From positions 310,001 through 374,000 of the forward strand of contig NZ_JASJOU010000009.1 of the NCBI RefSeq assembly GCF_030068605.1: a stretch of DNA of 64,000 bases. The letters are read 5' to 3'. Numbering within the stretch: the stretch's first letter is position 1; each line of letters begins with the position of its first letter. A program made the translations under genes and the position numbers. This DNA comes from Xanthocytophaga agilis. Its GTDB lineage: Bacteria > Bacteroidota > Bacteroidia > Cytophagales > 172606-1. The notes below the pieces were generated by a model, which searched no databases, was not told the DNA's origin, and was given only the letters and a program-made list of their open reading frames with translations. Shown here piece by piece: positions 20,639 through 55,611 of the stretch.

Positions 20639-20783
20639 GCCCGAAAGATACAGTAAATTGCCTGTGCGAATCAATATGTAACTTTCAAAAATATGCTTCG
20701 CATTATTTCTACACTCTGAGTTGTCTCGAATTATAGCTTGAGACTTGCCTACCACTATGACATGATCGAGCAAAAGTTTTGTT

Positions 20784-21020
20784 GTGGATTATTCTATGCA
20801 AGCAACTTTTGCGGTGAATTCCGATCAAAAAATGTTTTGCCGTGAGTTATGCACAAGCGAAAAAATGATCGGAACTCCGGTCAAAATAAAAAATGATCAG
20901 AGTTCTGCATAAAATCAAAACTGCCATGAATACTATGCAAAATATCTGTTGATTAATGCTATTGGCTTGCCCTTGCTAAAAAATAGCTTGCACGGAACTA
21001 TGCGCAAACAAAAACTTTCA
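20784..21020 (+). repeat. degenerate 28-bp tandem repeat array, copy 1
   Basis: Units of exactly 28 bases start at 20814, 20842, 20870, 20898 and 20926, after a 30-base unit at 20784. Each has a head of the type GTGAGTTATGC or GGAACTCCGGT, a central CAAA-like core at position 12-13, and an A-rich tail ending ATGAT or CTGCC. A 39-base irregular stretch is followed by one more unit at 20993 (CGGAACTATGCGCAAAC). Units differ from each other at many positions, there are no spacers, and the period is not a multiple of three. Related arrays lie at 54.2 and 55.2 kb. Confidence 0.8.
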
Positions 21021-21050
21021 CTACAAAAGTGACTTCTTGTAGTGAAAGTT
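21013..21050 (-). terminator. hairpin terminator
   Basis: A 14-bp perfect stem (AACTTTCACTACAA at 21013-21026, TTGTAGTGAAAGTT at 21037-21050), followed on the minus strand by TTTG. It ends the sigma-factor operon and overlaps the last 28-bp repeat unit. Confidence 0.85.
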
Positions 21051-21087
21051 TGGCAGGAATTATATTCTGAAGGTTAATCTTGTTAAG

Positions 21088-22308
21088 CTAGAAGCCTAAT
21101 GTAAGTCTTAACCCAGGATAAACATGTCTGAAGAGATCATTAAAATACAATTCAGGTTCAAGCCTCAAACGTTGCAACCCTTTGCTGGACATATAAGGCG
21201 AAAATGCTGTAGAAATCCTGAAAGTATTTGGACGAAAAAAATCTCCCTGTCGACGGATCAGATATCCTACCTTAAATTCAGCCCATTGAATCTTCCGGTT
21301 ATTCCAGTTATTTCTTTGAATATCGCTGGATTTGAATCCTGCTATACCCAGAGAAAGAAAATCATTGGAATGAATTGTTATCTGATTATCCCCATCTCTG
21401 CCAAACGCAAAGAACCGTTCCCAGCCAATCAGAAAACCATCCGATTGTGTAGTGCTATGGGCAAGCCCTCTTTTATATAGAATCTGTGGCAAAAAGATAA
21501 CATTAGCTCCTATACTAGGCATAATGGTATTGCCAACTAGTCCCATACCAAAACGGGGTATAATTAAAATCTGATCAGGTTTAAGTTGTTTATTTATCCT
21601 TACAGATGCAGGAGTCTGCATTCCGGTATATGTTACTTCAGAAGCCCATACATGCGAATCAAATACACTTCTCTTTTCTGTGTTCTTCATGTCGCTGATC
21701 AGCTTTTCAATCTTAGGATTTAATTTTCCCTGAATAATTTTTTCCAGATCATCCAAAGAGTTAACTAAAAAATAGATTCGAAAATGCCGGCTGATAGATG
21801 CGGGTGTCTGTATAGCTTCTCCTTTCGCATTATTTCTTATTTCACCAGGCGTTAAGGGTTTTATTACTGAAAATCCCTGTTCAATCACAATGGTATCCTG
21901 TGCCGCTTTGACTAGTAAATTTTCATCAGTCTGGAAGTCAATTTGTGTATGACTCATAGGATATCTCCAGAAACGCATGTTTCGTTCCTGTTTCTTTAAT
22001 CTGTATAGAACCTTTAGGGATTCTGTAGAGGAACTTAGTGAATCTTTTATCTGACTCAGATCCTGCAGAAAGATTGTTAATAGAGAATCTACATTACGAA
22101 ACCGCAATAGATCTGCATTGTCCTGTAAGCCTATTATTACTTTATTCTCATTTTCCAATGGAATAATGAGTTGCCGATCTTCTTTCACAAAAGGGGTCTT
22201 TTTTATAGAGGAAGGCTTATCTGTAAGCCAATCATCAGTAGTGGTTTGGGCAAATGAAATCCCGGCTATGCTCAACATGAGCATAGTACAACACAAAAGA
22301 TGTTTCAT
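21088..22308 (-). CDS. putative outer-membrane protein of the ECF operon
   Basis: A 406-residue protein with signal peptide (cleavage after SFAQ). A central coiled-coil-like stretch (about residues 65-115) precedes a C-terminal half that looks like beta strands and ends in LRLTLGF, an outer-membrane barrel ending. The family is not recognised. The ATG lies 4 bp after the stop of the upstream gene, so it is the last gene of a three-gene operon with an ECF sigma factor. Such operons often couple envelope signals to sigma release. A structural or sensory envelope role is inference. Confidence 0.65.
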   Translation of the reverse strand: MKHLLCCTMLMLSIAGISFAQTTTDDWLTDKPSSIKKTPFVKEDRQLIIPLENENKVIIGLQDNADLLRFRNVDSLLTIFLQDLSQIKDSLSSSTESLKVLYRLKKQERNMRFWRYPMSHTQIDFQTDENLLVKAAQDTIVIEQGFSVIKPLTPGEIRNNAKGEAIQTPASISRHFRIYFLVNSLDDLEKIIQGKLNPKIEKLISDMKNTEKRSVFDSHVWASEVTYTGMQTPASVRINKQLKPDQILIIPRFGMGLVGNTIMPSIGANVIFLPQILYKRGLAHSTTQSDGFLIGWERFFAFGRDGDNQITIHSNDFLSLGIAGFKSSDIQRNNWNNRKIQWAEFKVGYLIRRQGDFFRPNTFRISTAFSPYMSSKGLQRLRLEPELYFNDLFRHVYPGLRLTLGF

Positions 22309-22312
22309 AAAA

Positions 22313-22975
22313 TCAATTCTGTTTTCTGGTAAGAGTAATAGTGAGTTTGGGTGTATGATCGTCAGTAGCCTGTTGTTTTACCACAAAAGATGGATCGTCC
22401 TGCATGTCTGAATAATTTGTAGAACGCGGTACTTCATTGGCATGAACTACTCTGAAAGGCTTATGTGCTTTTGCCATTTGGGAAGGTTTAATAACATTCT
22501 GAGGTATAGAATCGCTACCCTTCAGTGATGTTGTATCAACCAAAGCCAGAGGTGTCTCAATAAATTGTTTTTGTATTAGAGGTATAGAAGTAGTTTTTAT
22601 AATGTATAGCGTATCCTTTTTCTCTACGTTATTAGTTACAACTCTTTCTGTATAGGTTGAGTCATTACTCTTTTCAAGCTTAAGCGTAGCTTTAGAATAA
22701 GCTGACTTTAATTGGTTCAACTCCATAGCATATACATTTAACTGTTGTTGCTGCAAATAAAATTGCCATACCACAGTTGTTACCAGCAAAAAGACACCGA
22801 TTCCAGCAGCAATGCGAAACCACAGTACTTTACGAGAAGTTCTTTTAGGCTCTAATTGAGGCTGTAGCTGTTGCCAGAACCGATCCTGACGAAATCTAGT
22901 TGAAGAAGGGGTGTCTTCCATCTGATGGACAGCATCACGAAACAAACGGTCAATATCTTCGGGTGGTATGTTCAT
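22313..22975 (-). CDS. single-pass membrane protein, probable anti-sigma factor
   Basis: A 220-residue protein. The N-terminal 45 residues are soluble and charged (IDRLFRDAVHQMED, then FWQQLQPQLEPKR), followed by one transmembrane helix (about 49-70) and a periplasmic region with a short coiled coil and a low-complexity tail. This topology (cytoplasmic sigma-binding region, one helix, periplasmic tail) fits anti-sigma factors, and the gene overlaps the ECF sigma gene by 26 bp. No zinc-binding HxxxCxxC motif is seen, so it is not of the ZAS type. Function is inferred from context. Confidence 0.65.
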   Translation of the reverse strand: MNIPPEDIDRLFRDAVHQMEDTPSSTRFRQDRFWQQLQPQLEPKRTSRKVLWFRIAAGIGVFLLVTTVVWQFYLQQQQLNVYAMELNQLKSAYSKATLKLEKSNDSTYTERVVTNNVEKKDTLYIIKTTSIPLIQKQFIETPLALVDTTSLKGSDSIPQNVIKPSQMAKAHKPFRVVHANEVPRSTNYSDMQDDPSFVVKQQATDDHTPKLTITLTRKQN

Positions 22976-53834: not shown

Positions 53835-54164
53835 ATGAGTTATCCCGAATTTTGAGGAAAAGATGTCATTGAAAAAGTAAGAACAATGGTTAGTTTACAA
53901 AGAGAGTTATGTTGACTTCAATCGTGTGTGGCAGTGTAGGTGCGTAGGGATAAAAATTCCGCGGGCCTAGCGTTAGCCCTGCGGGGCGAAGCTTTGGAAT
54001 TTTTTGCCCTTTTTTGCTTCGTTTTTTGGGCAAGCAAAAAATGAAGAAGCCTAGGGAAGAGGAATGTAAGGGACTATCGACTAATCTAGGAAAAGAGATT
54101 TCTCAAAAGAATAGATGCTGGTTTTGTAAAACAAACTCTCATCCAAAATTCAGAATGACTTATG
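53835..54164. repeat. GC-rich structured intergenic element with imperfect inverted ends
   Basis: Ends: ATGAGTTATCCCGAATTTTG (from 53835) is matched in inverted form by CAAAATTCAGAATGACTTAT (to 54163), about 16 of 21 positions. The interior is unusually GC-rich for this genome at 53958-53995 and folds well: AAAAATTCC/GGAATTTTT (53952-53960, 53996-54004) encloses a GGGC/GCCC core, and a second stem TTTTTTGCTT/AAGCAAAAAA (54010-54019, 54032-54041) follows. No gene is seen. It resembles REP/BIME-like or MITE-like dispersed elements; copy number cannot be judged from one copy. Confidence 0.55.
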
Positions 54165-54174
54165 TAATTACAAA

Positions 54175-54285
54175 TAGCTTTTGAACTGAATCTAGTTCAT
54201 TTTTGGTTTTGAACAGAATAGTGGTCGTTTTTAATTTTGACCGTTATTTTGCTCATCTTCTGCTTTGAGCAGTATACTAATCAAA
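54175..54285 (-). repeat. degenerate 28-bp tandem repeat array, copy 3
   Basis: On the minus strand the core TCAAA recurs at 54268-54264, 54240-54236, 54212-54208 and 54184-54180, exactly 28 bases apart each time, followed by an A-rich tail (TCAAAATTAAAAACGAC, TCAAAACCAAAAATGAAC). The sequence relates to the arrays at 20.8 and 55.2 kb but is more diverged. It lies directly upstream of map and just after the GC-rich element. Confidence 0.65.
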
Positions 54286-55104: not shown

Positions 55105-55201
55105 CCTGTATTCTCTAGCAATATAGATGTGGAGGAGTAATAGGTATGGATTTATAACAAAAACATCCTTGCGTTTAATTCACGACAGCCGATTGTTTGC
55201 G

Positions 55202-55492
55202 GTGAATTCCGATCACTTTTGTTGGTTGCGGTGAATAATACGCAAGAGCCAGAGTGACCAGAGTTCTAGTCAAAAAAATTTTTGTCGTGAGTTATGCGCA
55301 AAACAAAAAATGATTGGAACTCCGGTCAAACTCAAAACTGCCGTGAGTTATGGTCAAAACCTTCTTTTATGGTGGGGCAACTGAGACAAACCCAAACAAG
55401 AGCCTTGCTGTGAACAATGCGCAAACTAAAAGTAATCGGAACTCCAGTTACAATTAAAACTGATTGGAGTTATATGCAAGTTGATCACTGAT
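55202..55492 (+). repeat. degenerate 28-bp tandem repeat array, copy 2
   Basis: Units start at 55202 (29 bases), 55231, 55259, 55287, 55315 and 55343 (28 bases each), then a 39-base irregular stretch (55371-55409), then 55410 (27 bases), 55437 and 55465 (28 bases). Heads alternate between GTGAGTTATGCGC-like and GGAACTCCGGTC-like types; tails end in AAAATGAT or AAACTGCC. It is the longest of three related arrays. It fills most of the 507-base gap between map and the LLM oxidoreductase gene. Confidence 0.8.
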
Positions 55493-55611
55493 AAGTTGAC
55501 CAGCCTTGTCTTCTTCAAAAAAGTTTTTGCATAGAACCACGTTCAGCTATCGGCAGCATAAAAGGAGTAGCTTAAAGAAGTCATATCCTCATGGACTATC
55601 TGATATATTTT

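Follow-up and report, generated by a model that had tools for sequence, protein, structure and literature searches.

The 28-bp tandem repeat beside murB in Xanthocytophaga agilis is one copy of an intergenic dispersed element that is present at dozens of sites in the genomes of X. agilis and X. flavus. It lies in a stretch of 64,000 nucleotides (NZ_JASJOU010000009.1, positions 310,001 to 374,000), which is called the window here. We assign a probability of roughly 60% to the reading that the array is a dispersed, non-coding and probably non-autonomous mobile mosaic repeat of Xanthocytophaga, which works like a BIME or a MITE. A copy of such a dispersed mosaic element explains the murB-side array better than an array of sites specific to this locus.

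First, the local structure of the array was analyzed. The initial annotation had described five units of exactly 28 bases each at 20814-20953, which was confirmed: it is the same array, read in a frame that begins four bases later than our start at 20810. From 20810 to 20922, the 18-bp units start at steps of exactly 28 bp (Table 1), and the array reaches past the earlier description on both sides: a degenerate unit begins at 20783 on the left, and a terminal unit begins at 20989 on the right. The combination of a strict period with a loose sequence was also borne out. Within 20814-20953, the self-match at lag 28 was 0.527 compared with 0.281 ± 0.042 in dinucleotide shuffles, and none of 1000 shuffles was as periodic at this lag; 0.527 was reached by two of 1000 such shuffles at any lag tried (8-99, overlap of at least 40). 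Over 20783-21006, the lag-28 self-match was 0.439 compared with 0.264 ± 0.033, again reached by none of 1000 shuffles. The value at lag 56 (0.571) was slightly above that at lag 28 because two unit types alternate. Tandem Repeats Finder did not report the array even at a score of 30, as the units are too unlike. The array was judged non-coding from the outset, as 28 is not a multiple of three, and we agree.

Table 1. Features of the murB-side element and of related elements in the window (positions count from the first base of the window).
Feature	Position	Strand	Remarks
Whole element, copy of the alpha family	20716..21063	+	348 bp; extent inferred, ends placed by likeness to other copies
Left terminal-inverted-repeat-like end CTGAGTTGTCTCGAATTATAGC (consensus ATGAGTCATCCCGAATTATAGC)	20716..20737	+	4/15 mismatches
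Degenerate upstream unit TGTGGATTATTCTATGCA	20783..20800	+	
Unit 0 TGCGGTGAATTCCGATCA	20810..20827	+	Hybrid: left half A-type, right half B-type
Unit 1 TGCCGTGAGTTATGCACA	20838..20855	+	A type
Unit 2 TGATCGGAACTCCGGTCA	20866..20883	+	B type, near-palindrome
Unit 3 TGATCAGAGTTCTGCATA	20894..20911	+	B-like, degenerate
Last unit ahead of the 67-bp step TGCCATGAATACTATGCA	20922..20939	+	
Terminal unit TGCACGGAACTATGCGCA	20989..21006	+	67 bp past the last unit, as in many copies
Perfect 15-bp inverted repeat	21012..21051	-	T-rich tail on the minus strand
Degenerate right terminal-repeat-like end TTTGGCAGGAATTAT	21049..21063	+	4/15 mismatches to TTTGGGATGACTCAT
Family-1 MITE that lacks an array and shares the terminal inverted repeat	53835..54163	+	Adjoins the third array; left end exact, right end by eye
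Third array of the window: four units at 28-bp steps, built of different half-site words	54182..54283	-	Period reported by Tandem Repeats Finder; units 54182, 54238 and 54266 scored, unit 54210 read by eye
Second alpha array of the window	55170..55545	+	Units 55170 to 55528; ortholog in X. flavus

The initial annotation had also proposed a search for similar units elsewhere in the genome, and these are present. With the murB-side array as a DNA query and 40 of 128 candidates scored, at least 74 matches were found in the 66 contigs (9.77 Mb) of the X. agilis genome, and the best one outside the murB locus had an E value of 5.5e-34 among the candidates scored. A profile of units 0-2 gave at least 112 matches in X. 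agilis and at least 124 in X. flavus (150 candidates scored in each), and parsing into units resolved 55 loci in X. agilis and 53 in X. flavus, which constitute the alpha family. The distribution outside these two genomes was narrow. A copy of the element, used as a query in 59 genomes (X. agilis and 58 relatives), matched only in X. agilis and Xanthocytophaga flavus YF14B1, and the third Xanthocytophaga genome (G002; 4.5 Mb, 72% complete) had no alpha match by either the copy query or the profile. An order-wide profile search of 291 genomes, including both Xanthocytophaga and carried out with stricter filters and 15 candidates scored per genome, yielded a single weak match in the 289 other genomes (24.8 bits; L260, G046:C15:10796-10855). 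Queries from alpha and from the beta family described below had no match in phages or plasmids, and an origin from either was rejected on this ground; a single alpha unit had no match in viral contigs. No such element was found in the titles and abstract openings screened, a body of text outside which most subscription journals fall.

Analysis of the alpha copies revealed a common architecture. Each unit comprises an imperfect palindrome of 18 bp, TG-N5-RA|TY-N5-CA, and approximately 10 A-rich bases. The palindrome consists of two 9-bp half-site words placed head to head, and the array is a mosaic of such words; one half-site may resemble the arms of Xer/dif sites. The common order over the 108 loci is an inverted A unit, a hybrid unit, alternating A and B units, the last unit, the 67-bp step and a terminal A unit. 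The complete order is absent from some copies, although the closing 67-bp step with its terminal unit is usual, and length differences between copies mostly amount to whole units. As the unit chains of both families were parsed with preset steps only, the step counts derived from them are biased, and distances between successive units were therefore also counted freely: around the alpha loci, 231 of 455 were 28 bp and 81 were 29 bp, and the shuffle control (one shuffle per locus) yielded two distances in all. Units at the same position in different copies agreed at 13.7 of 18 bases, compared with 10.7 of 18 for units within one copy (45 of the 55 X. agilis loci kept). Thus, the array arose before it spread. 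The spacers (51% A) were alike at the same place across copies, whereas the units varied; for this reason, and with CRISPR-DR63 at 21.1 bits (threshold 37), a CRISPR array was rejected.

A second family was recognized through the third array of the window. As a BLAST query, this array gave only weak matches, of which three (E values of 0.014, 0.18 and 2.2) were relevant: judged by eye and by unit score, they fall in arrays built of other words, which form the beta family. One such array used as a query had at least 46 matches in X. agilis and at least 60 in X. flavus when 40 candidates were scored per genome; outside these two genomes, it had one match in genome G004 (E value of 0.001) and none in genome G003. 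The 29 beta loci parsed in both species had the 28-bp step, and the 67-bp step was present in 21 of them (allowed steps preset), mostly following the unit TGATTCGATTTCTGTTCA or a similar one. Some alpha and beta words are close (TGATCGGAA and TGACCGGAA). Comparison of the 49-base linkers of the two families showed 15 of 49 identical bases, compared with 13.7 in shuffles and reached by 774 of 2000 of them, which indicates that the linkers are unrelated. At least two large families therefore hold the 28- and 67-bp steps with different half-site words and unrelated linkers.

Two scans of longer stretches of sequence were also performed. The architecture scan asks only for eight symmetric key bases learnt from alpha. 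At a threshold of 29, it found three arrays in the window and seven in a 400-kb part of contig 1; at a threshold of 30, it found six in the latter, and shuffles gave none at either threshold. It found no array in G003 and G034 (200 kb each) or in 395 kb of G004. The period scan of 464 kb, in which a jitter of one base was allowed, found eight clusters at 28, five at 27 and seven at 29, compared with three clusters in all for 24 other periods.

Most known bacterial dispersed repeats are recognized by sequence. What is unusual about the present arrays is that two large families of a single genome have a strict geometry in common and differ in their letters, and ordinary repeat finders can miss their kinship for this reason. 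Since both families keep the 28- and 67-bp steps despite their different words, the geometry may matter to the element itself. A further reading, which we hold to be rather unlikely, is that the frame is kept and the half-site words are swapped as sets, that whatever moves or uses the element would read the geometry and the mutual complementarity of the words instead of a fixed sequence, and that the units could be exchangeable recombination modules of a selfish or regulatory class. If the geometry is indeed read by a transposase or recombinase, mobile mosaics can be built in a way that is new; if it is not, the arrays caution against taking a strict period by itself as proof of selection.

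The ends of the element connect it with MITEs. The 21-base form of the end, ATGAGTCATCCCGAATTATAG, occurred 33 times in the X. agilis genome at up to three mismatches, compared with none for the reversed pattern. An end like ATGAGTCATCCCGAA with at most 4/15 mismatches was detected in 30 of 88 alpha arrays (17 left, 18 right and 5 both), compared with a shuffle expectation of 1.0 left and 0.4 right. These 88 arrays remained of 108 after those with a low chain score or fewer than four units had been dropped, and they, like the 29 beta loci, were drawn from both species with orthologs counted twice. In a second end test (threshold of at most 4/15), the right end of the murB-side copy had 5/15 mismatches, which is below the pass mark. 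Among the beta arrays, an end at up to 3/15 mismatches within 250 bp was found in one of 29 on the left and in none on the right (shuffles 0.15 and 0.3). For 25 of 30 end matches, a partner end lay approximately 300-470 bp away, and the pairs mostly enclosed array-less MITEs; inspection by eye revealed no target-site duplication in these 25, mostly array-less, copies. Inward pairs of the exact 12-bp end numbered 15 in the two genomes, all 333-491 bp in length, and the next one measured 11 kb. No autonomous parent with exact 12-bp ends was found in the two genomes by this search, which degenerate ends would escape. The MITE at 53835-54163 has the terminal repeats ATGAGTTATCCCGAATTTTG / CAAAATTCAGAATGACTTAT, and it has relatives of approximately 300-490 bp in the genome.

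These observations allow the explanation that the element is an ordinary MITE with terminal inverted repeats, in which the 28-bp array is a passenger in the middle and has no part in moving. It is consistent with the sharing of ends between alpha arrays and clearly mobile array-less MITEs, and also with composite alpha copies that are joined to family-1 MITE sequence (L004, L035 and their X. flavus counterparts). However, beta arrays keep the frame without such ends, and in 58 of the 88 alpha arrays no end passes the threshold, though decay may explain the latter. We consider this explanation unlikely, although it survives better than the other alternatives discussed below.

Mobility was analyzed further by comparison of insertion sites between the two species. 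Ten array-less MITEs had both flanks located in X. flavus. Six of these sites are vacant there, with the flanks adjacent, and in the other four the flanks are 397-706 bases apart, as if the element were present. Of the vacant sites, four (L067/L271, L074/L268, L088/L269 and L095/L270) have a short inverted repeat in X. flavus instead, as judged by eye. As an exception regarding target-site duplication, a 29-bp hairpin sequence stands on either side of the MITE at L070, and X. flavus (L267) has it only once, which is possibly a long target duplication or an insertion at a terminator. The end class is thus mobile and seemingly tied to terminator-like places. MITE and terminator seem to replace one another at L067, L074, L088 and L095.

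In contrast to these MITEs, none of the arrays had a clean empty site in the comparison of X. agilis with X. flavus. The element at L011 in X. agilis, which sits behind a gene that is murG-like by eye, is replaced at L156 in X. flavus by an unrelated stretch of 101 bp with a hairpin (by eye), and at L150 the X. agilis genome has lost the array. The motif of REP-type transposases was absent from 1.04 Mb of the two genomes (overlaps counted), which corresponds to approximately 1/20 of their 19.3 Mb. In addition, the flanks of L025, L047, L101, L134 and L142 match places in the sister genome that are about 5 kb to 150 kb apart, and the arrays may mark rearrangement points.

The comparison with X. 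flavus also bears on whether the arrays are maintained. A copy is present at the murB site of X. flavus (ungapped match of 2639 bases with 95% identity), and the murB-side copy is old since it is common to both species. A first pass assigned an X. flavus counterpart to 37 of the 55 X. agilis arrays, and further ones were located through their flanks; many alpha copies predate the split of the two species, and some orthologous arrays have since been lost or altered in one of them. Divergence was calculated for 39 of 40 ortholog pairs (the 37 minus L007, plus four by flank match). It was 7.9% in units, 8.7% in spacers and 9.9% in the 67-bp linker, compared with 8.1% in flanks within 60 bp and 5.5% in farther, partly coding flanks. 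Because the units diverge as fast as the spacers, selection on spacing was not supported; selection on the units was not seen, and in these 39 pairs there was no sign that the arrays as a set, the murB-side one included, are maintained. Unit columns 1, 2, 8 and 18 changed least between species (2-3%), partly because units were picked by these very bases.

With these data, the view that the array consists of binding sites for a dimeric DNA-binding protein, such as a nucleoid or partition protein, with the spacing under selection, appears somewhat less likely than the passenger-array MITE. In its favor, the 18-bp sites have two-fold symmetry (TG/CA on the outside, RA/TY on the inside), two families with different words have the 28- and 67-bp steps in common, and four unit columns change slowly, although the units were chosen by these bases. 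On the other hand, the units are not conserved above their neighbors, whether spacers or near flanks; the half-site words vary widely, and their common order across copies points to descent; and at some orthologous sites one of the two species no longer has the array or has it in altered form. The suggestion of the initial annotation that selection acts on spacing at the murB locus was thus not upheld: the agreement of units by position rather than within a copy, together with their divergence, indicates a period kept by descent.

We then analyzed folding and base pairing. Both families fold strongly on both strands (alpha, n = 45: z of -4.2/-3.6; beta, n = 29: z of -6.7/-6.5; 40 shuffles each), compared with z of -0.5 and -0.6 for flank controls. 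The consensus fold of 14 copies had a score of -16.0 on the plus strand (-1.5 ± 1.6 in 60 column shuffles) and -10.8 on the minus strand (-1.5 in shuffles). Paired cells in the consensus structure amounted to 427 of 448, compared with 418.5 ± 1.9, with the structure chosen on the same alignment. We regard array foldability as real and selection for it as unproven. Covariation within alpha was sparse: two of 28 position pairs (z of 3.0 and 2.6) and two of eight within-unit tests (positions -1 and 3; z of 2.6 and 2.9) exceeded z 2.5, and 59 alpha B/B units showed no internal coupling (399 compared with 402; L102, L103, L106, L107 and L111-L115, that is 9 of the 55 X. agilis loci, left out). Self-hairpin units were rejected based on these within-unit results.

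A beta unit and its best inverted partner are complementary at 15.1 of 18 bases on average. This complementarity was matched by 308 of 500 position-shuffled sets in X. agilis, 14 of 500 in X. flavus and 50 of 500 in the combined data, and best-partner pairing is attributable to the words carried at each position. Beta positions -2 and -1 complement each other more within than between arrays (z of 2.0 and 3.5 in the two genomes, the highest among the 28 and 27 position pairs tried), and positions -6 and -5 do so in X. flavus only (z of 3.4). The same word flanking a beta spacer, able to pair, was found in 15 of 203 cases, rarer than the chance value of 31 ± 4.5, and beta units with the same word twice were near chance (32 of 244, compared with 40 ± 5.3). 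With strong energy and weak, mixed covariation, a fold of the whole element as RNA was rejected. A search of Rfam with the arrays gave weak matches only and no family at threshold.

Thus, it seems improbable, more so than the protein-site array, that the copies are loci of a structured RNA or small RNA acting via predicted unit-unit helices. Such loci would account for the strong folding, for a consensus fold far below column shuffles with an excess of paired cells, and for the complementarity of beta units -2/-1 within arrays; but both strands fold nearly equally, the paired-cell structure is not independent of its alignment, alpha covariation is sparse, pairable words across beta spacers are rarer than chance, and no Rfam family was reached. 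Finally, a local satellite generated by slippage at the murB-side site alone, which would fit a tandem, degenerate and intergenic array and which resembles the old satellite initially considered, is hardly credible and was excluded, as the copies are dispersed over dozens of sites and follow one unit order.

We therefore favor the dispersed, probably non-autonomous mosaic repeat. Several results speak against this reading: the arrays gave no clean empty site, target-site duplications were lacking apart from L070, no autonomous partner with exact 12-bp ends turned up, beta arrays lack the end, pairing is not clearly maintained, and the REP-type transposase motif was absent from the 1.04 Mb searched. 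Single strands of the element might fold into helices of unit against unit, and DNA folded in this way would have been acted on by a transposase or recombinase supplied in trans. Most copies, including the murB-side one, would now be neutral relics, with the possible exception of the right-end hairpin, which could be used as a terminator by the neighboring operon. The left neighbor of the array is MurB (PF02873, PF01565). On its right are minus-strand genes led by an ECF sigma factor (PF04542, PF08281, PF07638), and the two genes between this factor and the array (21088-22308 and 22313-22975) had no Pfam match. The hairpin at 21012-21051 is likely the terminator of this ECF operon, judging from its sequence and its fitting position. 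Long hairpins are not typical of the family: between the terminal unit and the right end, 11 of 89 rows fold below -15 kcal/mol and most have no long hairpin. Eight of the 11, from six sites (the window copy, L028/L126, L101, L109, L128 and L137), represent one long-hairpin type with a stem that differs per site, and the remaining three are unlike it. Regarding gene context, divergent neighbors flank two of 42 alpha copies (X. agilis copies with both neighbors seen) and 1 of 14 and 0 of 12 beta copies, compared with a background of 14 of 50 gaps of at least 300 bp (400 kb, similar mechanical ORF rule). Neighbor genes in these counts are mechanical ORFs, and alpha arrays with a low chain score or fewer than four units were omitted.

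Of the known systems, BIMEs and BOX/MITE elements come closest to these arrays in the way they work. REP/BIME elements, as described in PMC2817692, are extragenic and of high copy number; their palindromic units belong to a few types, stand at regular distances in either orientation and form mosaics with differing numbers of units. The Xanthocytophaga arrays are likewise extragenic and mosaic, with clustered palindromic units in both orientations and in variable number. However, a REP is a hairpin of 20-40 bp with a GTAG or CGTC foot, whereas the unit consensus TG...CA has neither foot by eye; each unit here consists of two loop-less 9-bp words that are often unlike, with a 28-bp step and a 67-bp end step; and no associated transposase was found in the 1.04 Mb searched. 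BOX elements of Streptococcus consist of boxA-boxB(n)-boxC modules and, according to the description in PMC3049150, are dispersed, variable in the count of their middle modules and over-represented between convergent genes. Set against this description, the Xanthocytophaga element is alike in being modular and dispersed with a variable count of units, and its modules differ in being 28 bp long and pseudo-palindromic and in alternating in two types. MITEs, such as the one of Cardinium (PMC9769881), are short and non-coding with many copies, part of which have a terminal inverted repeat. The murB-side element is similarly short (348 bp), non-coding (28 is not a multiple of three) and multi-copy, but no parental IS and no regular target-site duplication were found here, the interior is periodic and a second family exists without ends. 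As the REP foot is lacking, and as neither regular target duplications (by eye, in the 25 end pairs) nor an autonomous parent (with exact 12-bp ends) was found, we do not file the element by name under BIME, BOX or MITE. A lead, by description only, is provided by subclass 2.6 of the REP-associated transposases, which occurs in Bacteroidetes and is reported with 'atypical secondary structures' that have copies elsewhere in the genome (PMC6006769); no such gene was present in the 1.04 Mb searched, and Xanthocytophaga belongs to the same phylum.
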